NCBI GenBank assembly: GCA_017505535.1
Contig: JAFVPD010000024.1
Location: 1 to 64,000 of the forward strand
DNA: 64,000 nucleotides
Origin: Muribaculaceae bacterium
GTDB lineage: Bacteria > Bacteroidota > Bacteroidia > Bacteroidales > Muribaculaceae
Direction of reading: 5' to 3'
Shown here: positions 22,911 to 47,726 of the stretch, piece after piece
Layout of the letters: each line of letters begins with the position of its first letter
Numbering within the stretch: position 1 is the stretch's first letter
Translations under genes and position numbers: made by a program
The notes under the pieces: model-generated
Databases searched by the model: none
Told to the model about the DNA's origin: nothing
The model's input: only the letters and a program-made list of their open reading frames with translations

Positions 22911-22940
22911 AACCCATTGCATCAAAACGATTTAACACTC

Positions 22941-24026
22941 ATGAACACTTTACGTTACCGACGCATCGCTGTTAAAATTGGCAGCAACGTGCTCACTCGA
23001 CCCGATGGAACTCTCGACATCACACGCATGAGCGCTATTGTCGATCAAGTTGCCTCGCTTCACCATCAAGGTGTTCAAGTCATCATGATTTCATCAGGTG
23101 CAGTAGCTTCAGGACGTAGCGAACTCAGCGAAAACAAGCGACTTGACGCAGTATCGGCTCGACAGCTTTATAGCGCTGTGGGACAAGCCAAACTCATCAA
23201 TCGTTATTACGAACTTTTCCGTGAGCATCGCATTGCCTGTGGACAAGTGCTCACGACAAAAGAAAATTTCTCCACTCGTCGTCACTACCTCAACCAAAAA
23301 CATTGCATGGAAGTGATGCTCGCCAACAATGTAATACCCATCGTTAACGAAAACGACACTGTTTCGGTAACCGAACTCATGTTTACCGACAACGATGAAT
23401 TGTCGGGACTCATTGCAACAATGATGGACATGCAGGCATTGGTGATTTTGAGCAATATCGATGGTGTATATGATGGCGACCCCAAAAATCCCGAGTCAAA
23501 GGTAATTACCGACATCACTTATGATACCGATGCCAGCGAATTTATTCAACAAGGCAAATCATCATTAGGCCGAGGAGGAATGACTACAAAATATCGCATC
23601 GCGCGCAAAGTGGCCAATGAGGGCATTGCCGTGATTATCGCTAACGGAAAACGCGACAATATCCTTCAAGACCTATTATCGCCTGAGCGCTCTATCCCTT
23701 ACACTCTTTTTCACCCCGCAGCGCAAACAACCTCGGGCGTAAAAAAATGGATTGCCCATAGCGAGGGCTTTGCCAAGGGAGAAGTACACATCAACCAAGG
23801 GGCTGCCGATGCTCTATTATCGGCACGTGGTGCAAGTCTCCTGGCTATTGGTGTCACCCACATCGATGGTGACTTTGAAAAAGATGACATTGTCAAGGTC
23901 ATCGATCCTGAAAAAAACATCATTGCACTTGGACGCATTGCCTATGACGCCAACGATGCTCGTGCTGTTATTGGCGACCGTGGAGCACGCCCCATTATTC
24001 ACAGTGATTATCTTTATATCGACTAA
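22941..24026 (+). CDS. proB: Glutamate 5-kinase
   Basis: A 361-residue enzyme for the first step of proline synthesis. The amino-acid-kinase domain shows RIAVKIGSNVLT, ISSGAVASGR, IPIVNENDTVS, FTDNDELSGLIA and GRGGMTTKYRIA, and a PUA domain occupies about 265-361 (KGEVHINQGAADAL, ARGASLLAIGVTHIDGDF). A TTG start at 22917 would add eight residues; ATG at 22941 places the beta-strand at the normal position. A foldback repeat begins four bases after its stop and separates it from proA. Confidence 0.93.
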   Translation: MNTLRYRRIAVKIGSNVLTRPDGTLDITRMSAIVDQVASLHHQGVQVIMISSGAVASGRSELSENKRLDAVSARQLYSAVGQAKLINRYYELFREHRIACGQVLTTKENFSTRRHYLNQKHCMEVMLANNVIPIVNENDTVSVTELMFTDNDELSGLIATMMDMQALVILSNIDGVYDGDPKNPESKVITDITYDTDASEFIQQGKSSLGRGGMTTKYRIARKVANEGIAVIIANGKRDNILQDLLSPERSIPYTLFHPAAQTTSGVKKWIAHSEGFAKGEVHINQGAADALLSARGASLLAIGVTHIDGDFEKDDIVKVIDPEKNIIALGRIAYDANDARAVIGDRGARPIIHSDYLYID

Positions 24027-24030
24027 TTTA

Positions 24031-24193
24031 AGGGTACTTATATAAATTAATTTGTGATGATTTGTGAATGAGCATAGCGAGCTATGTGATTGATACAAAA
24101 GCTAAAAGGCTCTAAATAAAAGCACAAAGCGCACAAAAGAAAGGTCCCGACAACTATTATTTAACTAATTCGTGGAATTTATAGAAATTCCCT
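24031..24193. mobile_element. MITE-like foldback repeat, copy A (163 bp)
   Basis: The element begins AGGGTACTTATATAAATT and ends AATTTATAGAAATTCCCT, which are inverted copies of each other with few mismatches. The middle holds CATAGC-GA-GCTATG (24073-24086). A second copy with the same ends and the same inner blocks (GAGCATAGCGAGCTAT, CACAAAGCGCACAAAAGA, TTAACTAATTCGTGG) lies at 45884-46080. It has no coding capacity. Copy A lacks about 30 bases of the left inner arm present in copy B. It starts four bases after the proB stop. No clear target-site duplication is visible. Confidence 0.75.
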
Positions 24194-24205
24194 AAATTGT
24201 ACATT

Positions 24206-25441
24206 ATGCTTCAAGAAACATTTAACGCTGCCCGACAAGCCGCTCGATCACTTAACCGTCGCTCAGCTCACGAAATAAACGCCCTACTGCTTTCGCTTGC
24301 CGATGCGGTGGAACAAGCAATACCTCAAATTTTGGAGGCCAATGAGCGCGACCTCGCTCGCATGGATCAAGCCAATCCCAAATATGACCGACTTCAGCTC
24401 ACCGATTCACGTCTGCATGACATTGCTTCCGACATGCGTGCTGTTGCTTCGCTCCCCTCGCCGTTAGGAATCGAGCTTAGCAAAGCCACTCGCCCCAACG
24501 GAATGACCATCTCAAAAGTTTCAGTGCCGTTTGGCGTGATTGGCGTCATTTATGAAGCTCGTCCCAATGTAACTTTTGACGTGTTCTCTCTATGCATCAA
24601 AGCAGGGAGTGCTTGTTTGTTAAAAGGGGGTAGTGATGCTCGTGACACAAATGAATGTTCGGTAGCACTCATCAAACGCGTACTTCAAGAGAACGCTTGG
24701 GACCCCTCAACCGTTACACTCCTGCCGGTTTCGCACGATGCAACAGCTCAAATGCTGAATGCGGTGGGACAAGTTGACCTCATCATTCCCCGTGGTAGCA
24801 AAGGCTTGATTGACTATGTGCGCGACAATTCACGCGTGCCGGTCATTGAAACCGGAGCCGGCGTGTGTCACACCTATCTACATTCATCAGGGCTCACAAG
24901 CTATGCCCAAGAAATTGTCTTGAACGCAAAAACTCGACGAGTGAGTGTGTGCAATGCTCTTGACACTTTGGTAATTGACCGTAGCCGTCTTAACGACCTG
25001 GCTGAGATATGCCTACCGCTTGAGGCCAAAAACGTTACAATCTATGCCGATGAAGAAGCGTTCTCAGCCCTCAATGGTAACTACTCGTTACTTGAAAAAG
25101 CCTCTGACGACGACTTTGGCCGTGAATGGCTCGACTATAAAATGTCAATCAAAACCGTTGCCGATATTGATGAAGCCATCGAATTTATTGAAGCCCACAC
25201 TTCGCGCCACAGCGAAGCTATCGTGGCCGAGGACAATGAGGCTACGCGCTTGTTTTTAGCCGAAGTTGATGCTGCGTGCGTGTATGCCAACGTCTCAACA
25301 GCCTTTACCGATGGCGGACAGTTCGGATTTGGCGCCGAGATAGGTATTTCGACCCAGAAACTACACGCTCGTGGGCCAATGGCTCTCCCCGAAATCACAA
25401 CCTACAAATACATCATCACCGGGACAGGACAAACTCGATAG
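24206..25441 (+). CDS. proA: Gamma-glutamyl phosphate reductase
   Basis: A 411-residue NADPH-dependent reductase, second enzyme of proline synthesis, of the aldehyde dehydrogenase superfamily. Visible motifs are FGVIGVIYEARPNVTFDVFSLC, LLKGGSDA, LIIPRGSKGLIDYV and VIETGAGVCHTYL with the catalytic cysteine. The C-terminal FGFGAEIGISTQKLHARGPM is typical. The ATG at 24206 is preferred over a TTG at 24197, which lies almost against the foldback repeat. proB lies upstream across that repeat, so whether they share a transcript depends on read-through of it. Confidence 0.93.
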   Translation: MLQETFNAARQAARSLNRRSAHEINALLLSLADAVEQAIPQILEANERDLARMDQANPKYDRLQLTDSRLHDIASDMRAVASLPSPLGIELSKATRPNGMTISKVSVPFGVIGVIYEARPNVTFDVFSLCIKAGSACLLKGGSDARDTNECSVALIKRVLQENAWDPSTVTLLPVSHDATAQMLNAVGQVDLIIPRGSKGLIDYVRDNSRVPVIETGAGVCHTYLHSSGLTSYAQEIVLNAKTRRVSVCNALDTLVIDRSRLNDLAEICLPLEAKNVTIYADEEAFSALNGNYSLLEKASDDDFGREWLDYKMSIKTVADIDEAIEFIEAHTSRHSEAIVAEDNEATRLFLAEVDAACVYANVSTAFTDGGQFGFGAEIGISTQKLHARGPMALPEITTYKYIITGTGQTR

Positions 25442-44584: not shown

Positions 44585-45883
44585 ATGATACGCAATACTT
44601 TAATAGCATTAATGCTTGGTTGCAGTGCAATAACCGCCTCGGCCAACGACGTGTATGATTATCTTTCACAAGACGCGCCCGCAGCAAATACCCATACGCC
44701 CTACTACCACCAACGCGCATCTCACTTTGCCACATTGCCCATCGACAGCAACGACATCATATTTCTCGGCAACAGTCTAAGTGATAATGGATTGTGGAAC
44801 GAAATGTTTGACAACCCCGACATAAAAAACCGAGGCATCATTGGCGACATCGTACAAGGCATCAGCGACCGCGTGGGATTTGTTACCAAAGGACACCCTA
44901 AAAAAATATTCCTTCTCATAGGTGTCAACGACGTTTCTCACCACCTCACCCCCGACAGCATTGTAACTGCCGTTGAAAAACTCATCGTAAAGATTAAACA
45001 AGAGTCGCCCGAGACCGAATTATATCTCCAAAGTTGGCTACCCATCAACAACGATTTCAAACGCTACCGCAACATGATTGGCAAAGAGGAGACCATTCTT
45101 CAAGGGAACGTTTTTCTTGAACAAGTGGCACGCCGCCAAGGTGTGACCTGGATCAACCTCTTCCCATTATTTGCCGACCGCGAGTGTAAACTCCCTCGCC
45201 ACCTCACCAACGATGGTCTGCACCTCAACGAAGAAGGCTACAAAATTTGGCGCAACGCAGTGGCTAAATATGTCGATCCCAACTGGCAACCACAAAGCGA
45301 GGAAATCTACCCTCTTGACAACAACGATATCATGATTCTCGGCAATAACCTCGTAGGTGGAGCCGAATGGCATGAGCTTCTTGGCAACCCCAACGTTAAA
45401 GCTCGCTACACTTGGCCCGATGTGGTAAACAGCCTACCGGCTCTCGCAAAGAAAATTGCAGCCAATCACCCCAAGACAATCGTTTTGCAATCGAGCTACA
45501 ACCTCGTTGAGAATATGCCCAAAGGACACAACCTTAGCGCCGACTTTGACGCAGACATTATCGTAGAGAAGATGCAAGAAGCAATCAACGCAGTGCGCGA
45601 AATATCTCCCGAAACCGAAATCCTCATTCAGAGCCTTATCCCGGTAAACTCTTCTTACGAAAAATATGCCCAATTTGCCGGCACAGCCAAGAAAGTCAAA
45701 GTAGCCAACAAAAAGCTACAAAAACTCGCCAAGAAAAACAAAGTTATATGGGTTGACGTATATCCTGCCATGATTGATGAAAATGGTGAGCTGAAAGCCG
45801 AATACACCAATGACGGATTTAAACTCATGGGCAAAGGTTACTCAGCTTGGAGCGAAATACTCAAACCATACATCAACAAATAA
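44585..45883 (+). CDS. Tandem SGNH/GDSL hydrolase with an inactive second domain
   Basis: A 432-residue exported protein; signal peptide cleaved near ASA-N at 20. The first SGNH domain (about 40-230) keeps all blocks: Ser64 in FLGNSLS, Gly in GIIGD, Asn115 in GVNDVS, and Asp210/His213 in NDGLH. The second (about 240-432) has the same order but has lost them: Asn255 replaces Ser in ILGNNLV, GVND has become SYNL near 304-307, and Lys413 replaces His in NDGFK. The first domain is likely a carbohydrate or lipid esterase; the second looks like a binding or structural copy. A TAATTTTG box at 44541 may be the promoter. A foldback repeat begins at the next base after its stop. Confidence 0.85.
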   Translation: MIRNTLIALMLGCSAITASANDVYDYLSQDAPAANTHTPYYHQRASHFATLPIDSNDIIFLGNSLSDNGLWNEMFDNPDIKNRGIIGDIVQGISDRVGFVTKGHPKKIFLLIGVNDVSHHLTPDSIVTAVEKLIVKIKQESPETELYLQSWLPINNDFKRYRNMIGKEETILQGNVFLEQVARRQGVTWINLFPLFADRECKLPRHLTNDGLHLNEEGYKIWRNAVAKYVDPNWQPQSEEIYPLDNNDIMILGNNLVGGAEWHELLGNPNVKARYTWPDVVNSLPALAKKIAANHPKTIVLQSSYNLVENMPKGHNLSADFDADIIVEKMQEAINAVREISPETEILIQSLIPVNSSYEKYAQFAGTAKKVKVANKKLQKLAKKNKVIWVDVYPAMIDENGELKAEYTNDGFKLMGKGYSAWSEILKPYINK

Positions 45884-46080
45884 AGGGAACTTCTATAAAT
45901 TGCTTTGTGATGATTGGTGAAATTTTATTTGAGGGGATTTTTGATTTTTGTCGAATGAGCATAGCGAGCTATACGATTGAGACAAAGGCAAAAAAACACC
46001 AAATAAAAACACAAAGCGCACAAAAGAGAGTTCTCGACAACTATTGTTTAACTAATTCGTGGAATTTATAGAAATTCCCT
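45884..46080. mobile_element. MITE-like foldback repeat, copy B (197 bp)
   Basis: The ends AGGGAACTTCTATAAATT and AATTTATAGAAATTCCCT are inverted repeats with one mismatch. Inside, the left arm (TTTTATTTG and TTTTTGTC) is mirrored by the right arm (GACAAAGG and CAAATAAAA) around the head ATAGC-GA-GCTAT (45961-45972), so the entire element can fold into one long hairpin. It begins at the base after the SGNH stop codon. Copy A at 24031-24193 shares ends and core. It has no coding capacity and no recognised target duplication. Confidence 0.78.
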
Positions 46081-46095
46081 AAAACTCTTTATGTT

Positions 46096-47196: not shown

Positions 47197-47215
47197 CAAT
47201 CGCTTTTGGACAAAT

Positions 47216-47287
47216 GGCCCATTCGTCTATCGGTTAGGACGCAAGATTTTCATTCTTGAAAGAGGAGTTCGATTCTCCTATGGGCTA
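47216..47287 (+). tRNA. tRNA-Glu (anticodon TTC), copy 1
   Basis: Seven-base-pair acceptor stem GGCCCAT with ATGGGCT, anticodon TTC in the loop of GATTTTCATTC, T-arm GGAGTTCGATTCTCC. CCA is not encoded. Sequence is identical to the copy at 47611. Confidence 0.93.
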
Positions 47288-47325
47288 CTAATTAAACGAA
47301 TAATAAAGATTAAAGATTTTTTATA

Positions 47326-47580: not shown

Positions 47581-47610
47581 TACGAGATAAGTCTCCCAAA
47601 GGAGGCAGAT

Positions 47611-47682
47611 GGCCCATTCGTCTATCGGTTAGGACGCAAGATTTTCATTCTTGAAAGAGGAGTTCGATTCTCCTATGGGCTA
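47611..47682 (+). tRNA. tRNA-Glu (anticodon TTC), copy 2
   Basis: Base-for-base identical to the copy at 47216-47287, including acceptor and T-arm. No separate promoter box lies before it, so it should be processed from the rpsT transcript. A terminator follows. Confidence 0.93.
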
Positions 47683-47686
47683 CCTA

Positions 47687-47726
47687 TCACAACAATTCCG
47701 CAATAGTGGAGTTGTTGTGAGTTTTT
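47687..47726 (+). terminator. Terminator of the tRNA-Glu/rpsT/tRNA-Glu unit
   Basis: TCACAACAATTCC (47687-47699) pairs with GGAGTTGTTGTGA (47708-47720) over 13 positions with one G-U, followed by GTTTTT. Confidence 0.88.

Follow-up and report, generated by a model that had tools for sequence, protein, structure and literature searches.

A MITE beside stop codons in Muribaculaceae and the conserved hairpin that it has in common with elements of unrelated ends

In a stretch of 64,000 nucleotides from a Muribaculaceae genome (the window, for the purposes of this work), a repeat that can fold back on itself starts at the base following a stop codon, and a shorter copy of it lies close behind another gene end. 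The question raised by this locus is why the repeat is found there, the two possibilities put forward in the original prediction being a preference for insertion at gene 3' ends and a role as a 3' processing or termination element.

Anatomy and identity of the repeat

The gene upstream of the longer repeat (copy B) is SGNH-hydrolase-like (ORF at 44585-45883, + strand, with a weak NCBIfam match below the cut-off), and its TAA stop codon at 45881-45883 is directly followed by the repeat at 45884-46080, in agreement with what had been noticed. The exact element, as delimited by its terminal inverted repeats, its target-site duplication and its genome-wide copies, is a full-length MITE of 195 bp at 45885-46079 on the + strand. 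It runs from GGG (45885) to CCC (46079), the left terminal repeat being GGGAACTTCTATAAATT (45885-45901, + strand) and the right one (46063-46079, - strand) having GGGAATTTCTATAAATT as its reverse complement. A direct repeat TAAA, to which no strand is assigned, flanks the element at 45881-45884 (also supported by reading of the sequence) and at 46080-46083, in such a way that the stop codon of the SGNH gene is part of the target duplication.

The interior contains a long imperfect hairpin module, located by folding (45902-46018, + strand), and within it a conserved core of 56 nt (45939-45994, + strand), supported by covariation and by a score of 69.8 bits with R1, a 56-nt covariance model made from 22 aligned cores. 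The predicted end-to-end foldback of copy B was recovered as a single RNA hairpin of -51.3 kcal/mol (z = -4.9), a value equalled by none of 200 shuffled sequences.

Copy A (24032-24192, + strand) is the same MITE with an internal deletion in its left arm, and the loss of about 30 bases described earlier amounts to 34 bp (161 bp against 195 bp). It is 86% identical to the repeat at 45884-46080 across 147 bp, its flanks are TAA on both sides with a fourth base that is not the same, and its hairpin core (24053-24107, + strand), in which the left outer arm is missing, reaches 52.3 bits with R1. This copy begins 5 bases past the stop codon of proB (glutamate 5-kinase; 22917-24026, + strand; TIGR01027, 317 bits) and is followed by proA (glutamate-5-semialdehyde dehydrogenase; 24197-25441, + strand; NF001221, 501 bits), so both copies do lie close behind gene ends and in the same orientation. 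Also in the window, two near-identical tRNA genes (47211-47301 and 47606-47696, 92% over 91 bp) are 395 bp apart.

The repeat is, with hardly any doubt, a MITE: it has 17-bp terminal inverted repeats, a 4-bp TWWA duplication and a length of 195 bp, it is multicopy, and it is devoid of transposase or coding capacity. It constitutes a new family of a known kind. Around 25 matches, counting copies and fragments, were found in its own genome, many of which have been shortened to 61-147 bp by internal deletions and still have recognisable ends, and 9 of 11 genus-mates also carry matches. Most full-length copies show a perfect 4-bp duplication (TAAA, TTTA, TTAA or TATA), and a clean one is missing at several copies. 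The persistence of derivatives without the hairpin core (L009, L012 and L016) indicates that the hairpin is dispensable for maintenance. Apparently the same insertion, at equal distances from its neighbours, is found in two species (L056 in G008 and L322 in G003), according to which some copies may be older than the separation of the species.

Insertion sites and the candidate helper

Of the 37 copies in the genus, 12 are placed between -1 and +6 bp relative to a stop codon, each at a distinct gene, against 25 of the 303 permitted TWWA sites (8.3%) in the window (binomial p = 2.6e-5), this being a rough measure from a single enrichment test with one 64-kb window as background and with genes from a simple hexamer caller whose 5' ends are approximate. 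The proposed tendency towards gene 3' ends is thus real, and it is due at least in part to the target and to tolerance of such insertions, because the stop codon is contained in the TAAA or TTAA target or is completed by the element. The stop codon overlapped the target duplication in 8 of the 12 stop-adjoining copies, and at L014, L016 and L070 the gene is now terminated by a TAG in which TA is completed by the first G of the element. That something beyond TWWA steers insertion to gene 3' ends would account for the fourfold enrichment over permitted sites, but we consider it unlikely, as selection against insertions elsewhere could produce the same pattern and the background comes from that single window.

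The mapping of copies against genes that had been suggested gave, besides this enrichment, mixed contexts, with 23 of the 37 copies between tandem genes, 8 between divergent ones and 6 between convergent ones. For the wider hairpin family, all 23 elements detected in 1.2 Mb of three genomes were intergenic, with the background mix of contexts.

Empty sites in relatives, which had been proposed as a check, support insertion at both loci of the window, although the exact bases before insertion are masked by diverged spacers. The proB-proA junction is free of the element in ten relatives, with spacers of roughly 2-16 nt, and the SGNH junction is also free of it in G009 and G010, where the next gene lies 13 nt past the stop codon and the homology is apparent by eye; all these relatives are other species. 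The tight spacers in them show that both window copies interrupt tight co-directional gene junctions.

These data bear on the second possibility, that of an element at gene ends dedicated to 3' processing or to termination. Such an element would be expected to adjoin stop codons, as in the 12 copies above, and to be in sense orientation, as both window copies are. Nevertheless, this reading is very improbable, considering that the copies occur in mixed contexts, divergent gene pairs among them, that the window copies sit between co-directional genes whose junctions measure only about 2-16 nt in relatives, and that no terminator-like site was detected: a search for GC-rich stems followed by a T tract gave 0 intrinsic terminators. 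Bacteroidetes-type promoters (TTTG and TANNTTTG) were not found within the elements either.

Regarding mobility, sequence similarities indicate that the MITE is very probably mobilised by an IS5-family transposase. A scan with its end sequences identified, in IMG/VR, a 1459-bp element (locus L127, 7810-9268) with a TTAA duplication and with ends, GGGGACTTCTATAAATT and GGTGGGTTCTATCAATT, similar to those of the MITE. Its transposase has 355 aa and matches the IS5-family model NF033581 with 314 bits, so this element appears as the best-matching helper. Contigs in G079 break at the same IS end, and a genome of the window's own genus (G003, locus L188) has an IS with related ends and imperfect flanks (TTAA/TAAT), the IS5-family transposase of which is 60% identical to that of L127. 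In the genome of the window itself, the search for an intact helper gave no match; this assembly is around 91% complete and may have lost repeats.

Conservation and distribution of the hairpin

The apex of the hairpin is formed by tandem GA/GA loops, a 6-bp stem and a CGRG tetraloop, the order in the core of copy B being GTC-GA-AT-GA-GCATAG-CGAG-CTATAC-GA-TT-GA-GAC, with one C.A mismatch in the stem. Selection on this structure was analysed with 74 distinct cores fitted to R1 (alignment A4, nearly ungapped in the core). Compensatory changes were found at 10 of 11 pairs, and double-changed cells numbered 173 versus 49.5 in shuffles and collapsed in slid controls, with the reservation that these statistics ignore the kinship of the sequences. 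Conservation of the inner GA/GA tandem extends to 71 and 73 of the 74 rows, and the loop is CGAG in 44 rows and CGGG in 17. As G.U pairs (64) are far more numerous than A.C pairs (3), it is the GA strand that folds, and selection acts on that strand only. Towards the base, a common order often recurs in the minimum-energy folds calculated for about twenty families: further GA/GA loops every 1-3 bp are followed by a helix and an A.G mismatch, then by a short helix and a bulged A, and finally by an outer helix. A variant stem, GTGTAT-CGAG-ATACAT, with shifted GA loops (GAGCGAGGA / GACGAGCGAG), was seen beside a standard element in G034 (L079, 1799-1854).

The pattern of changes makes it likely that the hairpin is functionally selected. 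Long stem-loops are common in MITEs and derivatives deleted for the hairpin occur, as would be expected if it were a functionless by-product of the inverted-repeat structure and of the descent of one MITE lineage. We find this improbable, because compensatory changes far exceed those in shuffles, the wobble is strand-specific, and the GA/GA and CGRG features are near-invariant despite differing ends and duplication lengths. Rfam covariance models gave no relevant match at gathering or permissive thresholds, and the hairpin sequence was absent as text from open-licence papers, which is weak evidence.

The middle of the element also matches repeats of other genera that have unrelated ends, and three classes of vehicles were distinguished. 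The first has GGGAAC... ends and a TWWA duplication, the second AGTAAC, AGTAAG or AGTGAG... ends and TA, and the third GAGCCTG, GAGGTTG, GAGGGTG or GAAGCTG... ends and TNA, with two inverted cores in many of the TNA elements. For the TA and TNA classes, a TIR-pair search among the fetched loci yielded no autonomous partner, and viral contigs gave two matches to the TA-class end only and none to the hairpin. A fourth end type, GGTGTCTCA..., occurs outside Muribaculaceae. In two genomes of other Bacteroidales families, elements of ~130 bp with GGTGTCTCA-like ends (L342, L349 and L353 in G172; L343 and L350 in G165) retain GA-AG-GA / GA-CU-GA loops, with an apical loop that is mostly different (ATGAA).

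An exact core pattern detected only G000, the window's genome, and G017 among 295 genomes of the order; it was too strict, and for this reason the covariance model was used. R1 matched 137 of the 247 Muribaculaceae genomes sampled, in 20 of 30 genera; these figures are a lower bound, G039 being a missed case. Weak matches were obtained in five genomes from other families, out of 198 sampled in the order. In G039, which represents another Muribaculaceae genus (contig C56; L105, 1324-1720), there are ~58 end matches of a MITE of ~195 bp with ends GGGGATTTCTATAAATT, two copies of which nearly abut, and in its interior, CGAGGGAGCAATGCGGGCATTGTGACCGAG, the hairpin has a CGGG loop, a form overlooked by the genome search. 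A strict 28-nt pattern run on 84,980 species genomes found 79 stretches, nearly all of them in Bacteroidales, plus Rubritalea profundi (Verrucomicrobiota), in which the exact 28-nt core lies at 4287-4318 of L509 and 7943-7970 of L521, in repeats with yet other ends. R1 matches numbered 11 in this verrucomicrobium and 32 in Duncaniella muris.

A covarying, one-strand hairpin across three kinds of ends and duplications supports that selection acts on the cargo and not on the ends, for elements that are commonly regarded as passive debris of a single IS. We see about an even chance that the hairpin, with its GA-NN-GA loops, 6-bp stem and CGRG loop on a long stem interrupted by an A.G mismatch and a bulged A, represents a functional nucleic-acid module of an undescribed kind, which several transposon lineages, unrelated to one another, would have taken up in Bacteroidales and a verrucomicrobium because it eases insertions near genes or aids their spread. 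It provides a testable way of asking why small repeats build up beside genes of abundant gut bacteria, and cultured hosts such as D. muris hold many copies of it.

Possible role of the hairpin and comparison with known systems

In co-directional contexts, the hairpin was found 33 times in sense and 16 times in antisense orientation (p = 0.02), a modest bias based on home-made gene calls. Together with the strand specificity and the location at gene junctions, it points tentatively, at somewhat less than even odds, to a role in RNA processing, in which the participation of RNase III is suggested by analogy. The main rival is a REP-like site that would be recognised as single-stranded DNA by a host protein, such as a tyrosine transposase, and that different MITEs would have captured because it aids their mobilisation. 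Folding selected on one strand is compatible with single-stranded DNA and with RNA alike, and the two inverted cores of many elements resemble REP dimers. However, Y1 transposases (PF01797) are uncorrelated with the hairpin, which is present in G003 and G016 without any Y1 match and in G000 with Y1 fragments only, no hairpin was found near the 12 Y1 loci tested, and the sense bias in transcripts also speaks against this site, which we regard as rather unlikely. An association with RAYT/Y1 transposases was rejected on the first two of these grounds.

The best explanation of the whole, to which we assign a probability of around 60%, combines a mobile MITE, an IS5-type helper and a hairpin selected at the RNA level. 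An IS5-family transposase would recognise in trans the GGGAA[CT]TTCTATAAATT ends and insert the element at TWWA, duplicating 4 bp; insertion at a stop codon leaves the gene intact because TAAA and TTAA hold TAA, and a TAA split after TA becomes TAG. The interior would be a separate module, a long hairpin with an apex selected for pairing on one strand and common to MITEs with different ends. Its action would take place in the transcript of neighbouring genes and would most likely concern RNA processing or stability, for instance through RNase III, and such RNA-level action would let the MITE sit within operons.

Among known systems, the REP/BIME sequences of the GTAG and CGTC super-families are short tagged hairpins with many copies, often arranged as inverted dimers, and the CGTC type, which has no dedicated transposase, is present in Bacteroidetes (PMC3733652). 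In contrast, the hairpin described here is embedded in a stem of ~100 nt within elements bounded by terminal inverted repeats, and at its foot GA-NN-GA flanks were found in place of a GTAG or CGTC tag. The RUP of Streptococcus pneumoniae is a 107-bp MITE at TA sites for which mobilisation by an IS630 element was proposed (PMC2229807), and it differs from our MITE in transposase family, host and interior. Closer in host, the MITE239, MITE464 and BrickBuilt elements of Porphyromonas gingivalis are intergenic and, like our MITE, belong to Bacteroidales and have terminal repeats related to IS5-family elements, but the sequences of these repeats are different, BrickBuilt contains a 23-nt tandem repeat and promoters, and a GA/GA-CGRG hairpin is not described in the excerpt considered (PMC4596501).

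The nearest published behaviour (PMC2649163, PMC2229807) is that of the Correia/NEMIS elements (CREE) of Neisseria, MITEs of ~105-157 bp with terminal inverted repeats and a TA target, which are co-transcribed with adjacent genes as a stem-loop and for which cutting or binding by RNase III was reported. The ends and hosts of CREE are other ones, the 4-bp TWWA duplication belongs to our MITE, and in the excerpts considered the CREE core is not presented as common to MITEs with unrelated ends, unlike the hairpin studied here. The likeness between both lies in the potential to form a hairpin, seen here by folding; processing by RNase III is for our element a prediction.
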